Below are positions 3,352-28,967 of a stretch of 34,007 nt of DNA, piece by piece. How positions within the stretch are numbered: the stretch's first letter is position 1; each line of letters starts with the position of its first letter. The notes under the pieces are model-generated. The model was not told the origin of the DNA. It did not search any database and saw only the letters and a list, made by a program, of their open reading frames with translations. Position numbers and translations under genes: made by a program. Source of the DNA: Porticoccaceae bacterium (GTDB lineage: Bacteria; Pseudomonadota; Gammaproteobacteria; Pseudomonadales; Porticoccaceae); assembly GCA_012960115.1 (NCBI GenBank), contig DUBX01000029.1:18028-52034 (forward strand). Reading direction: 5' to 3'.

Positions 3352-3528
3352 ATGTTTAATTATCGATTAGTCGCAACGCTACTTTTACTTTCCATTGTAG
3401 TGTTCCCCCTCGCTACTCAGTGGGCACTGGAACTTGACGGTGGCTGGTTTAGGCCTTTCTTGGTATGGGCGTTACTCATATTTGCCACGTACATATTACA
3501 GCGCGAACGGACGACTGATGAGCAGTAA
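3352..3528 (+). CDS. cbrX: Small two-helix membrane protein, CbrX position
   Basis: A 58-residue protein with two hydrophobic helices (about residues 5-22 and 34-49) linked by a short polar stretch (ELDGGWFRP), and a charged C-terminal tail (QRERTTDEQ). It lies between gluQ and cbrA, the place where pseudomonads carry the small gene cbrX that is cotranscribed and translationally coupled with cbrA. Its stop codon (3526-3528) lies downstream of the cbrA ATG (3518), giving an 11-bp overlap that implies coupling here too. The name rests on position, size and membrane topology. Its molecular role is unknown. Confidence 0.75.
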   Translation: MFNYRLVATLLLLSIVVFPLATQWALELDGGWFRPFLVWALLIFATYILQRERTTDEQ

Positions 3529-6409
3529 TATAGGCATTTTGACTCTTTTAGCGCTGATCACAGCGTGCGTTCTATCTAGAACTATAGCGTCTAGTACTGA
3601 TCGCTTGAGTCAAAATGTAATATTATCTCTGGCGTTACTTGCTAGTACCGGCGTTTTACTCGCCACCGGCGCCATCGAAATGACCGGGCGCTATGGCTAT
3701 AGCGCCATTTTTGCGTTGTTCGCGTTCTCTTTAGTCTTTGTCATTGCACCATTGATTTTGTTTCCTATCCGGCGTCTCAGTGGCGTGGTTAGATTAGCCA
3801 CCTCAGTGGACTTCTTGACCTTTCGTTATCGCGGTAAAAGTGTTGCCATTTGGGCCTGTGGCGCGACCATTTTAGCGGTCATTCCACTGCTAGTGGCACA
3901 GCTGTTATCTATAGAGTCGGTGGTCCATTTCATCTTTGGGGAAAACAAGACAACTGCCGGCATGCTGGTAACACTCGGAATCATCAGCCTAATATCTTGG
4001 AATTCCATACAATCTGGAGTGAGCAAACACCTTAGGTGGTTGCTAGCAGCGGCAGGACTTTTATTGCTCTGCGCTATGGGCTTATCCACATGGATTGTCA
4101 CAGACGCAGTCTTTGGTGGCGTCAGCGAAATGAATCAGTGGTCTGTTGAGAGCAATCAGCACAACATTATTAAGAGGTTTAACTCATCATACAGCCTATT
4201 TATTGTGTTTCTTGCTGCCAGTCTTTCTTATCCTGTAAATTTCAATATGCTCATCTCTGAAGAAATTTCCGATCGTCAAGCGAGTATGTCATCTTGGGTT
4301 TATCCTCTTTTAATACTATTAGTCAGTATCCCCCTAATACCCCTACTATGGAGTGGCCTAGCGCTTCAACCGTCGTCTTCACTGCAACAGTATCTATATA
4401 GCATGCCACTGTTGGCCGGGCACCCTCTCGTCTCAAGCCTGGGGGCCGCCAGTATCCTCTTATTAGGCATTACGTTGTCTAGTGGCTTGACCATCTTGTC
4501 GGCAAAAATGGTTCTTAACAGTGTTGTATTGCCCGATAAAAATCTATATCAACAAAAAAACCTAACCCAGTGGATCAACCAGCGCACCTTTATCGTCTCA
4601 CTCGGTCTGATTTTGTTCAGTATCGCACTTTGCTTGAACATCAAAAGCCGCAGCATAACCGATCTATATTTAGTCGGCTTTACCGGCCTGGCACAACTAA
4701 CGCCAGGTATAATTGCGGCAATGTATTTACCCAAAGTATCACGCCATGCCTTTATCGCAGGACTTGCTGGCGGTCTACTTGTTTGGTTGGTGACTTTAGC
4801 GTTGCCGATGCTATTTGGTGATTGGAGTTGGTATATACCCCTGCTGGACAAAACACTTCTTTTTGGCATGCAGGCCTGGGAAGTTTGGTCTATTGAAGCA
4901 CTGCTTCTGAACATTACACTTTGCACTCTTATTTCCCTTTTTGGCAAAATGGATAAGCAGCAAAAAACCTTTGCGTCTATTTGCATGGCCGACAATGTTT
5001 ATATTCCTGTTCGCGTCGAGATTGACCAAAAAACCGTTGCCGAGTTAACCGAGAGACTCGCTTTATCCTTGGGAGACGAAGCCCATGTCGAAATTGAATC
5101 AGCCCTAACGTTATTAGGATTTGATAGCCGAGAAATTAGGCCGGCCTCTTTGCGACAGTTACGCGACTCCATTAACGCGTCTTTAAATTTACGCTTTGGT
5201 ATTCTCGCCGCAGAACGGATTATGAGCCACTCTCTGCCGAGGACAATTTCGAATCAGTCTGATCCTGAGGATATTTACCTTCTTGAGTCAGTCCTTGCTG
5301 TTCACGGAGATCAATTGACTGGCATTGCAAGTGAATTAAATAAATTGAGGGTGCATCATCGAGAAATGTTGGATAAGTTGCCCATAGGGATTATTTCTCT
5401 CGATCAAAATGGCGAAATTTTAAAATGGAATACTGCCATATCTCGATACACAGGCATTGATAAAGATGCTGCCTTGGGAAGTTCGATTACAGATTTCCCT
5501 GAACCGTGGAAATCTAATATTAGAGACTTCCTAGTTAGTGACGACAAAGCTAGAGATAGTGTCCGCTTAGAAGGCGCAAATAGTGTCAGGTGGTTTAGTT
5601 TTCAGAAATCAACTGAAGGGACGCTTGAAGATCTTAATAACGACGTTATATTACTAATAGAAGAACAAACTCAAGCTGTATTGCTGACACAAAAGTCGAT
5701 CGACAACGAAAGATTGGCCTCTATTGGGCGCTTGGCCGCGGGTGTAGCCCATGAAATAGGAAATCCCGTTACTGGTATTGCATGTCTTGCTCAGAACTTA
5801 CAGCATGAAAGTGAGCCCAGCCAAATCCTTGAGTCTGCGCAACATATTTTATCTCAAACTGATCGTATTAATCGGATCGTAGAATCCCTAATTAATTTTT
5901 CCAAAGGTGATAAATCAAAGCAAGAGTTATTTTGTCTGGTTAACTTACGCAAAGTCATCGAAGAAGCTATCCAACTTTTAACCCTTGGGGATATAGAGCC
6001 TAAGGTCATCTTTACTGCTGACATTAGCCCTGATATGGACGTCTTAGGTGATTACCACCAACTGGTCCAAATCTTTCTCAATTTGCTCAGTAATAGTCGC
6101 GATGCGTCACCCTTACGTAGCCAAGTAACCATTTTAGCCAAGCGTGACTCACAAACTATTAGAGTTACCGTCAACGATTCAGGAACAGGCATAGATCAAG
6201 GGCTTCAATCGCAGTTATACGAGCCCTTCGTAACCACCAAGGAACCAGGGCAAGGAACGGGCCTAGGTCTCTGGATAGTATTTAAACTCGTCAAGGGTCT
6301 TGGAGCTGATATTTCAATATCAAGCCCAGCCGAAAATAGCACACGCGGCACAACAGTGGCTCTCAACTTCAAAGCGTACACTTCTGACGCGGTTGAGGAT
6401 GCCTCATGA
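3518..6409 (+). CDS. cbrA: CbrA-type sensor histidine kinase with SLC5 transporter domain
   Basis: A 963-residue hybrid of a Na+/solute symporter-like membrane module and a kinase, as in CbrA, which controls carbon/nitrogen balance and takes up histidine in Pseudomonas. About residues 1-485 form a multi-helix SSF/SLC5 region (including LTPGIIAAMYLP and AFIAGLAGG). A soluble linker follows, then a PAS domain (about 620-700, LDKLPIGIISLDQNGEI), HisKA with H745 (AAGVAHEIGNP), and a HATPase with N-box (NLLSNSRDAS), G1 (DSGTGID) and G2 (GTGLGLW). The kinase looks intact. An upstream in-frame start at 3434 would add 28 polar, non-conserved residues lying inside cbrX, so the ATG at 3518, overlapping the cbrX stop, is preferred. 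The stop overlaps the cbrB start by 4 bp. The first transmembrane helix is weaker than in Pseudomonas CbrA. Confidence 0.92.
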   Translation: MSSNIGILTLLALITACVLSRTIASSTDRLSQNVILSLALLASTGVLLATGAIEMTGRYGYSAIFALFAFSLVFVIAPLILFPIRRLSGVVRLATSVDFLTFRYRGKSVAIWACGATILAVIPLLVAQLLSIESVVHFIFGENKTTAGMLVTLGIISLISWNSIQSGVSKHLRWLLAAAGLLLLCAMGLSTWIVTDAVFGGVSEMNQWSVESNQHNIIKRFNSSYSLFIVFLAASLSYPVNFNMLISEEISDRQASMSSWVYPLLILLVSIPLIPLLWSGLALQPSSSLQQYLYSMPLLAGHPLVSSLGAASILLLGITLSSGLTILSAKMVLNSVVLPDKNLYQQKNLTQWINQRTFIVSLGLILFSIALCLNIKSRSITDLYLVGFTGLAQLTPGIIAAMYLPKVSRHAFIAGLAGGLLVWLVTLALPMLFGDWSWYIPLLDKTLLFGMQAWEVWSIEALLLNITLCTLISLFGKMDKQQKTFASICMADNVYIPVRVEIDQKTVAELTERLALSLGDEAHVEIESALTLLGFDSREIRPASLRQLRDSINASLNLRFGILAAERIMSHSLPRTISNQSDPEDIYLLESVLAVHGDQLTGIASELNKLRVHHREMLDKLPIGIISLDQNGEILKWNTAISRYTGIDKDAALGSSITDFPEPWKSNIRDFLVSDDKARDSVRLEGANSVRWFSFQKSTEGTLEDLNNDVILLIEEQTQAVLLTQKSIDNERLASIGRLAAGVAHEIGNPVTGIACLAQNLQHESEPSQILESAQHILSQTDRINRIVESLINFSKGDKSKQELFCLVNLRKVIEEAIQLLTLGDIEPKVIFTADISPDMDVLGDYHQLVQIFLNLLSNSRDASPLRSQVTILAKRDSQTIRVTVNDSGTGIDQGLQSQLYEPFVTTKEPGQGTGLGLWIVFKLVKGLGADISISSPAENSTRGTTVALNFKAYTSDAVEDAS

Positions 6410-7665
6410 CAACGCTTAGTAAAAGAATATTGGTGGTCGAAGATGAAGCTATCATCCGCGGTTCATTGACTAAATTACTGGAAAGGCATGACTACGAAGT
6501 TTCCGACGCGGTCAGCGTAAAGGCGGCAATCACTAAATTCAATCTTAACGAATTTGACTTAATTATTAGTGATCTCAGATTGCCGGGAGGTTCTGGCGCG
6601 GAGCTTATTAGCCTGGCGGGAGCAGTTCCTGTTCTTATTATGACGAGCTATGCAAGCCTGCGCTCCGCCGTTGACATCATGCGACAAGGGGCCGTAGATT
6701 ACATTTCCAAACCTTTTGATCACGAAGAATTAATGCAATCGATCAATCGTATTATCGGTGATCATCAACAAAGAAAATTGGCCAATATTAATGATGACCA
6801 GCCTTTGCTCGGCAATAGCCCTGAGATTCTTCATATTATTCAAACAATCCGTAAGTCGGCCCCTACTGCTGCCCCAATACTTATTTTAGGTGCCAGCGGC
6901 GTTGGAAAACAGGTCATTGCTAAGACCATCCATAATGCTGGTGTATCATCAGATAAACCTCTCATCACCATTAACTGTGCCACTATCGATGAAGATCAAC
7001 TCAAAAAAACTTATCGCTTGGCCGAAGAGGGCAGCATCGGCAGCTTGTTTCTGAGTAACATTGGCGAGCTACCTATGATTTTTCAAAAAACGATGTGCAA
7101 CCTAGTTAAAGACAAATCATTGCGCTGCCTTGCCTCAGCCAAGACTGATTTAAAAGAGCGTTGCGAGCAAGGAGAATTCTGTGAAGACCTTTACTTCGCC
7201 ATCAGCGTCGTCACCATTAAAGTGCCTGCTCTGCGTGAGCATAGCTCTGATATCCCTCAACTTACAGACTACTTTCTGGATCGTTTTTCAGTTGAACTTG
7301 GGATTCAGGTCGCGATTTCCCCTGAGGGTATGAGCGCACTGATACAGTACGATTGGCCTGGGAATGTTCGCGAACTTAAAAATGCACTCTATCAAGCGTC
7401 TATATTGGCAGACCCTGAGACACTGATTTCAGAGGCCATGCTAGGCTTGGCCTCTGAAGACCACACTGACACTCAGGCCTTAACTAACAATAGCTCCGTT
7501 ATACCGGTCACTGCTGATTTATCTTTGGAAGATTATTTTACTAACTTCGTACTAGATAATCAGGCGCATATGAGCGAAACAGCCCTAGCCAAAAAACTAG
7601 GTATTAGCCGTAAGAGCCTATGGCAACGCCGTAGTAAGTTAGGCATTAGTAGAAGCAAGATATGA
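6406..7665 (+). CDS. cbrB: CbrB-type response regulator with degenerate AAA+ domain
   Basis: A 419-residue regulator, about 60 shorter than Pseudomonas CbrB. The receiver (1-120) is intact: acidic pocket VEDE, phospho-acceptor D56 (ISDLRLPG), the T in IMTSYAS, and K in SKPFD. The AAA+ domain (about 135-350) is eroded. Walker A survives as GASGVGK (162-168), but Walker B GxLFLDE has become GSLFLSN (S217, N218). The ELFGHEKGAFTGA segment is missing, the sensor I strand is shortened, and the FRxDLYxRL arginine positions read FCEDLYFAI. The WPGNVRELKNAL motif remains. The Fis-type HTH (about 370-419, LAKKLGISRKSLWQRR) matches CbrB closely. It should still bind DNA under CbrA control but should not remodel sigma-54 polymerase. 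Overlap with cbrA is 4 bp (ATGA). Confidence 0.93.
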   Translation: MTTLSKRILVVEDEAIIRGSLTKLLERHDYEVSDAVSVKAAITKFNLNEFDLIISDLRLPGGSGAELISLAGAVPVLIMTSYASLRSAVDIMRQGAVDYISKPFDHEELMQSINRIIGDHQQRKLANINDDQPLLGNSPEILHIIQTIRKSAPTAAPILILGASGVGKQVIAKTIHNAGVSSDKPLITINCATIDEDQLKKTYRLAEEGSIGSLFLSNIGELPMIFQKTMCNLVKDKSLRCLASAKTDLKERCEQGEFCEDLYFAISVVTIKVPALREHSSDIPQLTDYFLDRFSVELGIQVAISPEGMSALIQYDWPGNVRELKNALYQASILADPETLISEAMLGLASEDHTDTQALTNNSSVIPVTADLSLEDYFTNFVLDNQAHMSETALAKKLGISRKSLWQRRSKLGISRSKI

Positions 7666-7758: not shown

Positions 7759-7786
7759 TTGATGTTAATCTATTTCTATTTAGAAT
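7759..7786 (+). promoter_or_regulatory. Putative sigma-70 promoter of the crcZ-like sRNA
   Basis: TTGATG (7759-7764), 16-bp spacer, TAGAAT (7781-7786). No GG-N10-GC sigma-54 element is seen between 7666 and 7811. The AT-rich tract upstream (7690-7758) could hold a CbrB site. Initiation is expected near 7793. Confidence 0.55.
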
Positions 7787-7792
7787 GGTCTC

Positions 7793-7919
7793 TTCTAGAT
7801 TAAGTGTCTGGATAATAATAAAAATAAATAATAATAATAATGTTTGATTACGAGGGTTCGATAGACTTCTGTCTTAAGGCTCATTGAAAGGGAATGTCCA
7901 AAGGCATTCCCTTTTTATT
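7793..7919 (+). ncRNA. CrcZ-like A-rich small RNA (Hfq/Crc decoy candidate)
   Basis: The 369-bp gap between cbrB and pcnB has no convincing reading frame but has all the parts of a small RNA: a promoter at 7759-7786, an A/U-rich single-stranded core, a small stem-loop (AGAC-TTCT-GTCT, 7863-7874) and an intrinsic terminator. The core at 7814-7840 contains six overlapping matches to AAnAAnAA in two runs (7814-7827 and 7827-7840). That is the catabolite-activity motif bound by Hfq with Crc. In Pseudomonas exactly this slot holds CrcZ, which titrates Hfq/Crc when CbrAB is active. This RNA would be about 127 nt, much shorter than the roughly 400-nt CrcZ of P. aeruginosa. Start and end are predicted, not measured. 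Confidence 0.7.
7887..7916 (+). terminator. Intrinsic terminator of the sRNA
   Basis: AAAGGGAATG (7887-7896) and CATTCCCTTT (7905-7914) form a perfect 10-bp stem with an 8-nt loop. The stem's 3' arm runs into a T tract (CCCTTTTTATT). It ends the crcZ-like transcript about 118 bp before pcnB. Confidence 0.9.
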
Positions 7920-8034: not shown

Positions 8035-9399
8035 ATGCTTGAACGCATTATTAAATTTTTTGACAAAAAACGATCTCAATCTGATTTTTCAGATCGGACT
8101 GTCTTCGATGCCGGACAATACGGCCTCACGTCTAAAATGATTAGTCGCAATGCGTATCAAGTGGTGGAAACACTTCAAAATGCCGGATTTGAGGCCTATG
8201 TTGTGGGCGGTTCTGTACGCGATCTTTTGTTAGGGTTAAAACCAAAAGATTTTGATGTGGCCACCAATGCAGAACCAATGGAGGTTAAATCACTATTTCG
8301 GCGCTCCAGAATCATCGGCCGACGATTCCAAATAGTCCATGTTCAATTCAGTCACGAGCTAATCGAGGTTACAACCTTTCGTTCAAATCAAGATAGCGAT
8401 GTTAAAAAATCGAAAAAGAACACACCTCTGCGACAGCAAAGTAAGAGTGGTATGTTAACGCGAGATAACGTGTTTGGCTCAGTCACCGATGATGCAGAGC
8501 GAAGAGACCTTACCGTTAATGCCCTTTATTACGATCCCAGTGACAATACTATTCACGATTTTACTGACGGACTGCAGGATATAGACAAACGCACAATACG
8601 AATAATTGGCGACCCCGCAACACGCTTTAGAGAAGACCCTGTACGCCTTCTTCGTGTAGCGAGATTTACCGCAAAGCTTGGATTTAGTATCGAACCTCGC
8701 ACTGCTAAACCAATGAGCAAGCTTGCCGGTGATCTCGCTCATGTCTCCCCACCACGATTTTTTGACGAAACGCTTAAACTCTTTATGAGTGGCAATGGTG
8801 CCTCAACATACAAGCTACTTTGCGAGCACCAACTGTTCGATCAACTGGCTCCCCAAGTTGCTCATTTAATCAAAGATGGTAGTAATCATGCTGCTAGGTT
8901 AATAGAGCAAGCATTTATTAACACTGACATTCGTATTAGTTCAAACAAAAGAGTGACCCCTGCATTTATCTATGCCGCTTTACTGTGGCCAGCCGTTGAA
9001 AAACTCGCTGCACACTATACTGATCGAGGTAATTCTCAGACTTACGCCCTAAGCAAAGCCGCAGGTGAAGTGATCGCTAAGCAAATTACAGTGACTGCGA
9101 TTCCTCGCCGTTTTACTATGCCGATGCGAGAAATATGGGACTTGCAGTTACAACTGCCACGTCGTGGCGGACATCGCGCCAAACGCTTATCAGAAAATCC
9201 ACGTTTTCGTGCAGCCTATGACTTTATTCTGTTGCGTGAACAGGCTGGGGAAGATTTGGCCGGGCTCGGTGATTGGTGGACTCAATATCAGGAGGCTGAC
9301 GAAGAGCAGAAACTAAAAATGTCTGAGCTACTAAGCAACGCTGGTAACAAGAGGCGTCGCAGTAGAGGTCCGCGACACAAAAAGGATCGCCAAGACTAA
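8035..9399 (+). CDS. pcnB: Polynucleotide adenylyltransferase (poly(A) polymerase I)
   Basis: A 454-residue class II nucleotidyltransferase that adds poly(A) tails to RNA 3' ends, promoting decay. The catalytic signature is clear: VVGGSVRDLLLG (about 56-67), followed by the acidic pair KPKDFDVATNA (D72, D74). Further motifs are RRDLTVNALYYD and the RFREDPVRLLRVARF helix that separates PAP and CCA-adding enzymes from other nucleotidyltransferases. The C-terminus is arginine/lysine-rich (NKRRRSRGPRHKKDR), as in bacterial PcnB, and is expected to bind RNA. Poly(A) polymerase is preferred over CCA transferase because of this basic tail and the pcnB-folK-panB context. The stop overlaps the folK start by one base (TAATG). 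Confidence 0.95.
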   Translation: MLERIIKFFDKKRSQSDFSDRTVFDAGQYGLTSKMISRNAYQVVETLQNAGFEAYVVGGSVRDLLLGLKPKDFDVATNAEPMEVKSLFRRSRIIGRRFQIVHVQFSHELIEVTTFRSNQDSDVKKSKKNTPLRQQSKSGMLTRDNVFGSVTDDAERRDLTVNALYYDPSDNTIHDFTDGLQDIDKRTIRIIGDPATRFREDPVRLLRVARFTAKLGFSIEPRTAKPMSKLAGDLAHVSPPRFFDETLKLFMSGNGASTYKLLCEHQLFDQLAPQVAHLIKDGSNHAARLIEQAFINTDIRISSNKRVTPAFIYAALLWPAVEKLAAHYTDRGNSQTYALSKAAGEVIAKQITVTAIPRRFTMPMREIWDLQLQLPRRGGHRAKRLSENPRFRAAYDFILLREQAGEDLAGLGDWWTQYQEADEEQKLKMSELLSNAGNKRRRSRGPRHKKDRQD

Positions 9400-27063: not shown

Positions 27064-27939
27064 GTGAAAACCATGTCGACTCTGACCTTACCTTCACCGG
27101 CAAAAATCAATTTGTTTTTGCGAATCACCAGCCAGCGGCCAGACGGCTATCATAATCTCCAAACGCTATTTCAGTTGCTGAATTTCGGAGACACTCTGAG
27201 TTTTACCTCTAATTTTTCAGAGGAAATTACGATCGGCTCAAAAATAGACGGTATTGCTACAAAAGATAATTTAATTTTTCGTGCGGCACTTATATTGCAA
27301 CAGTATGTCGGCACCAAGCACGGCTGTACTATTTCGCTCAACAAAAAACTGCCCATGGGTGCAGGTTTAGGCGGTGGCAGTAGCAATGCAGCAACTACGC
27401 TCGTTGGCTTAAATTCCCTTTGGCAATGCGGTGTTCCCTTGATTGAGCTGGCAAAATTAGGACGTAAATTGGGCGCTGATGTCCCCGTTTTTGTTCTCGG
27501 TGAAAGCGCCTTTGGCGAAGGAATTGGCGATCTATTAACGCCAACAAAACTGCCTAAGCGTTGGTTTTTAGTGGTAACTCCCGATTGTCATGTCCCAACC
27601 GCTGAAATTTTTTCAAATCCTCAATTGACAAGGAACTCTTCACCGATCAAAATACGCGCCCTCGCAGGGGAGCAGTACAGTAATGACTGCCAAAGTGTGG
27701 TTTTAGAACTCTATCCAGCAGTTAAACAAGTGCTAAAATGGATGGAAAACTTTGCTACCCCTTTGGTGACAGGAACTGGTGCTAGCGTATTTTGTAGCTT
27801 TGACAACCAACTAGAGGCCGAGGAGGCCCTTGGTCAGGTACCAAAGCAATGGAAAGCATTTACAGCCCAGGGGGTAAATCACTCTCCACTGCATCAACAA
27901 ATGAGGAAGTTTTTTACTGGGGCGTGGCCAAGCGGTTAA
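27064..27939 (+). CDS. ispE: 4-diphosphocytidyl-2-C-methyl-D-erythritol kinase
   Basis: A 291-residue GHMP kinase of the MEP isoprenoid pathway, phosphorylating the 2-OH of CDP-ME. It has the N-terminal [26 protein letters not shown], the ATP-binding [17 protein letters not shown] (about residues 97-113) and the late VTGTGASVF glycine loop. The start may be GTG at 27064 or ATG at 27073; neither is favoured by a strong Shine-Dalgarno. The last eight codons and the stop codon run into the tRNA-Gln gene, so the C-terminus ending GAWPSG is largely written by the tRNA acceptor and D-arm. The family core ends near GVNHSPLH, so these residues are an added tail. Confidence 0.96.
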
Positions 27940-27992
27940 GGCAACGGGTTTTGATCCCGTCATCGGAGGTTCGATCCCTCCCGCCCCAGCCA
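27918..27992 (+). tRNA. tRNA-Gln (anticodon TTG)
   Basis: The acceptor arm TGGGGCG (27918-27924) pairs with CGCCCCA (27982-27988), followed by discriminator G and an encoded CCA (27990-27992). The D-arm region GGCCAAGCGGTTAAGGC, the anticodon loop TTTTGAT with TTG flanked by ACGGG/CCCGT, and the T-loop GTTCGATCC are all present. The first 22 bases overlap the ispE reading frame, and the gene is followed 33 bp later by prs. It must therefore be cut from a mixed mRNA-tRNA transcript or have an internal promoter within ispE. Confidence 0.97.
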
Positions 27993-28025
27993 TTTTCAAC
28001 TATCACGAGCAATAGGAATACTAAC

Positions 28026-28967
28026 GTGGCTAGATTAATGGTGTTTACCGGAAACGCAAATCCGGACTTAGGAAATGAAATTGCCCGATCGCTGGGAGTG
28101 ACTCCAAGTAATGCACTAGTTGGGCTCTTCTCAGACGGGGAAATCAATGTTGAAATTCGCGAGAATGTTCGTGGGCATGATGTATTTATTGTGCAACCTA
28201 TCTGTGCGCCGACCAATAGAAATCTGATGGAATTGGTGCTTATGATTGACGCTCTGCGACGTGCGTCAGCAGGACGAATCACAGCAGTAGTACCCTACTT
28301 CGGTTATGCTCGTCAAGATCGTCGGGTAAGGTCAGTGCGAGTTCCTATTAGCGCTAAGGTAGTGGCTGACATGCTTTCAAACGCAGGTGTAGATCACGTC
28401 CTCACTGTAGATCTGCATGCTGAGCAAATACAAGGGTTCTTTAACTGTACCGTCGATAATATCTATGGCGCTCCAGTTCTACTGGACCATATTGAACGTC
28501 AAAACCATAAAAATTTGCAGGTTGTATCACCTGATATTGGCGGTGTTGTTCGAGCTCGCGCTGTCGCTAAACAATTAGGATGCGACTTAGCCATTATTGA
28601 TAAACGACGCCCTTCAGCCAATGAAAGTGAAGTGATGAACCTCATCGGTGAGGTTGCTGACCGTACCTGTGTGCTGGTTGATGATATGGTCGATACTGCA
28701 GGCACGCTGTGTAAAGCAGCCCAAGCACTTAAAGAGAAAGGCGCGAGTAAAGTCGTAGCCTATGCAACACATGCCGTATTATCAGGTGCTGCAATTGATA
28801 ACATTACAAATTCAAAACTCGACGAATTGGTTGTCACTAATAGTGTTCCTCTCAGCGAGGAAGCCAAACAGTGCAGTAAAATTAAAGTTCTTGCTATAGG
28901 TCCGCTGCTCGCTGAGTCGATACGCCGCATTAGTAATAAAGAATCTATCAGTGCCATGTTTTTATAA
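28026..28967 (+). CDS. prs: Ribose-phosphate pyrophosphokinase (PRPP synthetase)
   Basis: A 313-residue enzyme making PRPP from ribose-5-phosphate and ATP for purine, pyrimidine, His, Trp and NAD synthesis. Segments include [42 protein letters not shown], the metal-binding [13 protein letters not shown], and the PRPP loop [12 protein letters not shown]. The open frame extends to 27849 through the tRNA, but the GTG at 28026 (AGGA 9 bases upstream) gives the family start [10 protein letters not shown]; the ATG at 28038 is a weaker alternative. It follows the tRNA-Gln directly. Confidence 0.96.

Follow-up and report, generated by a model that had tools for sequence, protein, structure and literature searches.

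We analysed a 34,007-nucleotide stretch of a Porticoccaceae genome (contig DUBX01000029.1, positions 18,028 to 52,034 of the forward strand; hereafter the window) whose gene cbrB encodes the response regulator of a CbrAB-type two-component system. The protein is a CbrB ortholog by descent and, as its predicted features indicate, not a sigma-54 activator. That it is uncoupled from sigma-54, as the first-pass annotation of this DNA had proposed, is now strongly supported by losses in the AAA+ domain that run through the whole genus, by two separate excisions of that domain, by purifying selection on the receiver and the helix-turn-helix (HTH), by the lack of strict sigma-54 promoters after cbrB in the genus, and by the retention of rpoN. 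The best reading, which we infer from sequence and consider probable, is that CbrB here works as a receiver-controlled activator of the sigma-70 type, without sigma-54 remodelling. The assembly that contains the window comprises 2.43 Mb in 54 contigs.

Sequence changes in the window CbrB

The cbrB open reading frame (ORF) begins with ATG, is open throughout, and overlaps the end of the kinase ORF by 4 bp. Its features are as follows.

6406..7665, + strand: cbrB ortholog, 419 amino acids, predicted to be no longer a sigma-54 activator (ORF, Pfam, alignment)
6406..6759, + strand: receiver domain, residues 1-118, with the predicted phospho-acceptor D56 at 6571-6573 (Response_reg at 8-113; pocket residues)
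6805..7233, + strand: degenerate AAA+ core, residues 134-276 (alignment; structure model without the L1 loop)
6889-6912, + strand: Walker A, kept (alignment)
about 7029/7030, + strand: deletion point of the GAFTGA loop (alignment)
7054-7059, + strand: Walker B acids replaced by SN (alignment)
7177-7203, + strand: arginine-finger region (alignment)
7234..7467, + strand: AAA+ lid, residues 277-354 (AAA_lid_14)
7519..7662, + strand: Fis-type HTH region, residues 372-419 (conserved alignment block; HTH_8 below cut-off)

Pfam recovers Response_reg (residues 8-113), Sigma54_activat in two broken stretches, AAA_lid_14 (277-354), and HTH_8 only below the Pfam cut-off. We aligned the protein with thirteen CbrBs from other families of the same order, which serve as outgroups throughout. 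Walker A is intact (GASGVGKQ, residues 162-169). The L1 segment with GAFTGA, which spans 16 alignment columns (about 16 amino acids), is deleted at the junction of residues 208 and 209, and Walker B has changed from LFLDE to LFLSN, with both acids gone (S217, N218). At residues 258-266, FREDLYYRL has become FCEDLYFAI, so both arginine-finger positions are gone. The sensor II arginine, the residues of the receiver pocket (E/D, D, D56, T, and K), and the CbrB-type HTH are all retained. The first-pass annotation had already named the GAFTGA deletion, the Walker B and arginine-finger changes, and the preserved receiver (D56) and Fis-type HTH, and the alignment bears out each of them. Its description of sensor I as shortened needs correction: sensor I is present though altered (alanine in place of the threonine of the outgroups), and the part removed by this second deletion, 13 amino acids, is the pre-sensor-I loop. 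Given the loss of the Walker B acids and the arginine fingers, ATP hydrolysis is predicted to be absent.

An AlphaFold model built from a 19-row alignment (mean predicted local distance difference test score 79.3, predicted template modelling score 0.57) contains the strands of the AAA+ core and a short loop in place of L1. The solved structures closest to the model are NtrX, followed by NtrC1.

Loss throughout the genus

Thirty-five genomes of the genus, the window's included, were searched first, and CbrB was extracted from thirty-one of them; none was found in G008, G014, or G028, and G034 was not fetched (genomes are cited by our own labels). Twenty-five of these proteins have a readable AAA+ domain, a count that omits five proteins without AAA+ and G012, which meets a contig end. 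None of the 25, the window's protein included, retains GAFTGA or either Walker B acid; these losses occur in 0/13 outgroups, all of which are intact. The second arginine finger is missing in 24/25 genus proteins and the first in only four, again including the window's. In five genus proteins the Walker A lysine has become arginine. At the other end of the protein, the phospho-acceptor aspartate is present in all thirty-one CbrBs and the complete receiver pocket in twenty-eight, the exceptions being G001, whose N-terminus is cut, and G005 and G010, whose pockets are degraded.

A local pseudogene or an assembly error is ruled out by a 92% identical ortholog (G003) together with twenty-three further readable genus proteins that share the loss of GAFTGA and Walker B. 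We looked for close relatives with an intact GAFTGA, and for frameshift decay in the window, and found neither. The closest named relative, the SAR92 clade bacterium isolate NIOZ-UU62, is 92% identical.

G005 and G010 carry a CbrB without a detectable CbrA. Their pockets have lost the acidic pair and changed lysine to glutamine, and the HTH is conserved; their CbrB is possibly a phosphorylation-independent version.

Excision of the AAA+ domain and selection on the remainder

The AAA+ domain is wholly absent in five species, which form two groups (G006 and G020; G017, G018, and G033). Their CbrBs, of 183-191 amino acids, consist of the receiver, a short linker, and the HTH (with HTH_8 again below the Pfam cut-off). 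No further short CbrBs were found among the forty-two genus genomes with a CbrB hit. A tree of CbrA and PcnB (1420 columns from 35 genomes) places these groups in separate clades amid AAA+-bearing relatives, with supports of 94-100, and the excisions are therefore most simply independent. The short proteins remain under purifying selection, with a ratio of nonsynonymous to synonymous substitution rates (dN/dS) of 0.05-0.10 in three pairs.

Where the AAA+ domain persists, it has diverged. Its mean pairwise identity is 0.48 in the genus (22 proteins) versus 0.70 in the thirteen outgroups, compared with 0.73 versus 0.67 for the receiver and 0.82 versus 0.75 for the HTH (these figures omit AAA+-less and partial proteins as well as G005 and G010). 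When the window is compared with the species nearest to it, dN/dS comes to 0.10 for the receiver, 0.32 for the AAA+ domain, and 0.06 for the HTH. Across fourteen pairs the AAA+ values span 0.06 to 0.37, so the domain is relaxed yet constrained. The receiver stays at or below 0.13 in 16/17 pairs (the exception is G005-G010, at 0.25), and the HTH at or below 0.11 in all sixteen computed pairs.

Sigma-54 and the promoter after cbrB

We searched fifty-six genomes for rpoN and found it in fifty-three, including the window's. Loss of rpoN as the cause is thus ruled out, and the loss concerns CbrB and not the sigma factor. A single Sigma54_activat match in the window's genome is both strong and full-length, and it belongs to an NtrC-like protein that has GAFTGA; two weak matches lie in long ORFs.

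Strict sigma-54 promoters occur within 400 nt after cbrB in 8/13 outgroups versus 0/30 genus members (a count that omits G012; G004 and G009 had less than 400 nt available). We also considered a promoter relocated within the spacer and rejected it, with one loose match in thirty (G013; 0.065 expected by shuffling) and no strict match. Ten outgroup promoters from nine genomes, one of them a near-match, were examined for CbrB half-sites. Eight have one 79-82 bp upstream, and four of the ten have all three, near -122, -101, and -80, which agrees with the published target layout, TGTTAC-N12-14-GTAACA-N15-19-GTAACA (reported in PMC8871633).

CbrB might still serve sigma-54 indirectly, for instance by joining intact NtrC rings or by acting from solution. 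Both rpoN and the GAFTGA-bearing NtrC-like protein are kept, and DNA-binding mutants of the GAFTGA-less Caulobacter NtrC are reported to raise some sigma-54 genes (available sections of PMC12421884). Against it stand the complete loss of AAA+ in five species and the promoter counts, with strict sigma-54 promoters in 0/30 after cbrB and sigma-54-like sites in 0/35 at the operon described below. We regard this explanation as very improbable.

A compact palindrome before a TonB2-type operon

Fifty genus genomes were searched with the pattern TGTTWC-N5-GTAACA, using the reversed pattern as a control. The conservation of the palindrome itself follows from the search pattern; its position and distances do not. 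The palindrome TGTTAC-N5-GTAACA, built of CbrB half-sites, was found at fifty-four distinct places: thirty-five before a TonB2-type operon (in 35/50 genomes), twelve before a small RNA (sRNA), and seven elsewhere. The control gave eleven matches.

By Pfam, this operon comprises genes for a DUF3450 protein, two proteins of the MotA/ExbB type, ExbD, TonB, and a TPR protein. It appears to be a TonB2-type set, ttpB-ttpC-exbB-exbD-tonB-ttpD, in which the identities of ttpC and ttpD are partly presumed. It lies after thyA and folA (tested by Pfam in the window's genome, with the same layout in the other loci viewed). In 35/35 cases the palindrome is centred 55-57 bp upstream of a -35 TTG, which is followed at a spacer of 17 by TA(C/A)AA, and lies 180-184 bp from the start codon. 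None of the thirty-five has a sigma-54-like site. The copy in the window's own genome is perfect and falls outside the window, at G000:C25:78488-78504, 183 nt before the operon; the five AAA+-less species also have a perfect operon site. At the sRNA, the centre is 54-57 bp upstream of the -35 box in 10/11 recognisable sites. In the exception, G002, the distance is 45 bp, about one helical turn shorter.

The half-sites equal the published CbrB consensus and stand at a fixed distance from the sigma-70-like promoters of two unrelated transcription units. Their layout differs, with one compact N5 palindrome in the genus in place of the three spaced subsites of the outgroups and the published targets. 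The suggestion that CbrB became a sigma-70 regulator with retained HTH specificity is supported, at the level of sequence, by the half-sites and their placement, and needs correction for their arrangement.

The first-pass annotation had allowed for either an activator or a repressor. If CbrB were a sigma-70 repressor, the retained sites would serve to repress the uptake operon and the sRNA; the GAFTGA-less NtrC of Caulobacter is indeed reported both to repress and to activate at sigma-70 promoters (PMC10274813 and PMC12421884, in the sections available). The palindrome centre, 54-57 bp upstream of the -35 element and so at about -90, would lie outside the polymerase footprint, with near-constant spacing at the two units, and outgroup CbrB is an activator according to excerpts of reviews. 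We favour an activator because the site is centred some 90 bp before the predicted start, and we think repression unlikely.

The predicted sRNA gene and its promoter

The window has the gene order cbrA-cbrB-sRNA-pcnB of the CbrAB-CrcZ system. The remaining features of the locus are listed here.

3434..6409, + strand: cbrA-like sensor kinase, 991 amino acids, TTG start as listed (ORF; HisKA, HATPase_c, and PAS; orthologs adjoin cbrB in the genus and outgroups)
7759..7786, + strand: predicted sigma-70-like sRNA promoter, TTGATG-N16-TAGAAT (genus alignment)
7793..7916, + strand: predicted CrcZ-like sRNA with 5' hairpin, AAU/ANR tract, and terminator (covariance model R1, E 1.9e-18, the window copy being among the 26 model-building sequences)
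8035..9399, + strand: pcnB, syntenic marker downstream (ORF; orthologs beside cbrB)

The last of these is presumably pcnB. The gap between cbrB and pcnB is 369 nt in the window; Rfam identifies a CrcZ (306.8 bits) in the equivalent gap of the outgroup G054. The window sRNA has the same place, ANR tract, and terminator as CrcZ, yet Rfam does not match it to CrcZ and returns only two weak hits below their cut-offs.

Most genus members have such a short RNA gene after cbrB, with the 5' hairpin, AAU/ANR tract, and terminator, and 117-157 nt long as cut for alignment. The promoter table covers 27 of the 31 CbrB-bearing genomes (it omits G001, G023, and G031, which have no sRNA there, and G012), and the RNA alignment and covariance model, which also omit G009, use twenty-six sequences. 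In 27/27 a TTG stands upstream of the sRNA at a spacer of 16 (22 cases) or 17 (5 cases) from a -10-like hexamer, against a background TTG rate of 0.019. Run on the fifty genomes, the covariance model matches thirty-seven, each with a single copy (a second piece in G009 reflects a contig split); at most 68 candidates per genome were scored under strict filters, and weak copies may escape. In G005 and G010 the sRNA site is a perfect palindrome.

Hfq was found in 49/50 genus genomes, which makes a CrcZ-like, Hfq-binding role for the sRNA plausible. Crc seems to be absent from the window's genome though Hfq and the sRNA are present, judging from an Exo_endo_phos search and not from a Crc-specific model. 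The only Exo_endo_phos protein there (G000:C31:88890-89663) looks like XthA (exonuclease III).

Evidence for and against a sigma-70-type activator

The palindrome stands before the operon or the sRNA in 37/42 genus genomes with a CbrB hit. In six of the eight genomes that gave no CbrB hit, the palindrome was not found anywhere (operon presence there was not looked at), and it is likewise missing from three CbrB-bearing genomes. G008 and G014, which have no CbrB, also lack the sRNA palindrome that is retained in their sisters G005 and G010. Such contrasts are few in number and phylogenetically related.

Another regulator could own the palindrome, with the AAA+-dead CbrB acting elsewhere or on its way to being lost. 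The half-sites are short, some reduced genomes have no CbrB or, in the case of G005 and G010, have one with a degraded pocket and no CbrA, and the operon site occurs in two genomes without a CbrB hit, G028 (97% complete, with a contig end 159 nt upstream of pcnB) and G067 (73% complete). Set against this are the low dN/dS of the receiver and HTH given above, the half-sites, which equal the CbrB consensus and occur at the sRNA beside cbrB, the six palindrome-free genomes, and the G008/G014 comparison. We find this explanation quite unlikely.

Several observations count against a sigma-70-type activator at these sites. Five of the forty-two genomes with a CbrB hit carry no palindrome in front of either unit, G028 and G067 have the operon site with no CbrB hit, and purifying selection still acts to some degree on what is left of the AAA+ domain. 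No palindrome with two or fewer mismatches was found at the sRNA promoters of 16/27 genus members, the window included, and the best match in the window's clade has three mismatches and is not convincing; in the window's species the palindrome can be recognised at the TonB2-type operon, a different locus of that genome. The sRNA persists in five genomes that gave no CbrB hit (G008, G014, G059, G063, and G064), so it can be transcribed without CbrB, and nine CbrB-bearing genomes have no sRNA match (G001, G023, G031, G056, G057, G061, G062, G065, and G070), in addition to the contig-cut G012. The -10 positions of the sRNA promoters were chosen by eye on the alignment. Last, predicted sigma-70 promoters at Azotobacter crcZ and crcY are reported to have been ruled out experimentally in favour of RpoN (PMC6292655, available sections), a case that calls for caution in trusting predicted promoters alone.

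All nine genomes without an sRNA match carry the palindrome at the TonB2-type operon. Three of them were examined, and in these cbrB and pcnB lie close together.

If CbrB is a sigma-70-type activator, the following mechanism may apply. CbrA would still phosphorylate D56, a form of control suggested by the conserved receiver pocket. Phospho-CbrB would then dimerise, and its HTHs would bind TGTTAC-N5-GTAACA. Positioned at about -90 and always on the same side of the helix, it would aid sigma-70 RNA polymerase in a class I-like manner. Its targets would be the TonB2-type uptake operon and, in part of the species, also the CrcZ-like sRNA next to cbrB, which probably binds Hfq. Because five species manage without the AAA+ domain, its remnant would be no more than a scaffold or an ATP-binding platform for dimerisation.

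Other features of the window

The N-terminal part of CbrA (window 3434-5300) has no Pfam match at E 0.1. Pseudomonas CbrA is described with an N-terminal SLC5-type transporter domain (PMC7096432, in part). A tRNA-Gln (TTG) gene at 27918-27992 shares sequence with the ends of two program-listed ORFs (27064-27939, 27849-28967), whose true ends or starts therefore probably differ.

Comparison with known systems

The genus shares with the CbrAB-CrcZ-Hfq/Crc system of Pseudomonas and Azotobacter its gene order, the receiver, a conserved HTH, the TGTTAC/GTAACA half-sites, and an sRNA with A-rich Hfq-type motifs. It differs in having no GAFTGA, no Walker B acids, and no sigma-54 promoter with CbrB subsites, in the compact palindrome, and in a shorter sRNA; no Crc was recognised in the window's genome.

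The principle of sigma-70 action without GAFTGA is already known, since the NtrC proteins of Rhodobacter capsulatus and Caulobacter and VspR of Vibrio cholerae, all NtrC-family members without GAFTGA, are reported to work at sigma-70 promoters (available sections of PMC10274813 and PMC12421884). The window CbrB resembles them in the deleted L1 loop and the retained receiver and HTH. According to PMC10274813 (in part), Caulobacter NtrC requires both the binding and the hydrolysis of ATP, and R. capsulatus NtrC requires its binding. These proteins belong to other lineages, whereas the genus CbrB loses Walker B throughout and in five species the AAA+ domain altogether.

RegA, PrrA, and ActR are response regulators of about 185 amino acids with a receiver, a Fis-type HTH, and a proline run between the domains. 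The AAA+-less CbrBs are like them in architecture only (receiver and Fis-type HTH, no AAA+). They arose separately, from CbrB through the loss of its AAA+ domain, and their linkers do not contain the proline run.

The genus operon has the same gene set and order by Pfam as the Vibrio TonB2 system (ttpB2-ttpC2-exbB2-exbD2-tonB2-ttpD2; PMC6957404, in part), with DUF3450 first. For Vibrio vulnificus TonB2 the same source reports a Fur site and regulation by iron; upstream of the genus operon lies a CbrB-type palindrome.

Our literature search, in which coverage of subscription papers was thin, returned no report of a GAFTGA-less CbrB. What is new here is that the CbrB lineage is concerned, that Walker B is lost throughout, that AAA+ was excised twice, and that the promoters changed to match.

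Significance

Shifts of regulators between sigma-54 and sigma-70 have mostly been argued from isolated cases; here protein and promoter changes can be followed side by side across dozens of related species. The genus also offers natural controls, though few and related: AAA+ lost twice, a kinase lost with receiver decay, and regulator and palindrome jointly absent. On balance we lean towards the view that this marine genus preserves the whole path from a sigma-54 enhancer-binding regulator to a RegA-type sigma-70 regulator, with a carbon-starvation signal wired to a TonB2-type uptake operon through a compact palindrome. The stages would be an intact CbrB in related families, a dead AAA+ domain with a sigma-70-like target promoter as in the window, the AAA+ domain cut out (twice), and the loss of CbrB.

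SAR92-clade isolates are reported in culture (PMC10746254, in part), so the proposal may be testable. Papers on CbrAB, in the sections available, confine the system to Pseudomonadaceae (PMC6296734, PMC8871633). The reading proposed here predicts a CbrAB regulon outside that family, and it would connect TonB-driven uptake by ocean bacteria with the limitation of carbon.

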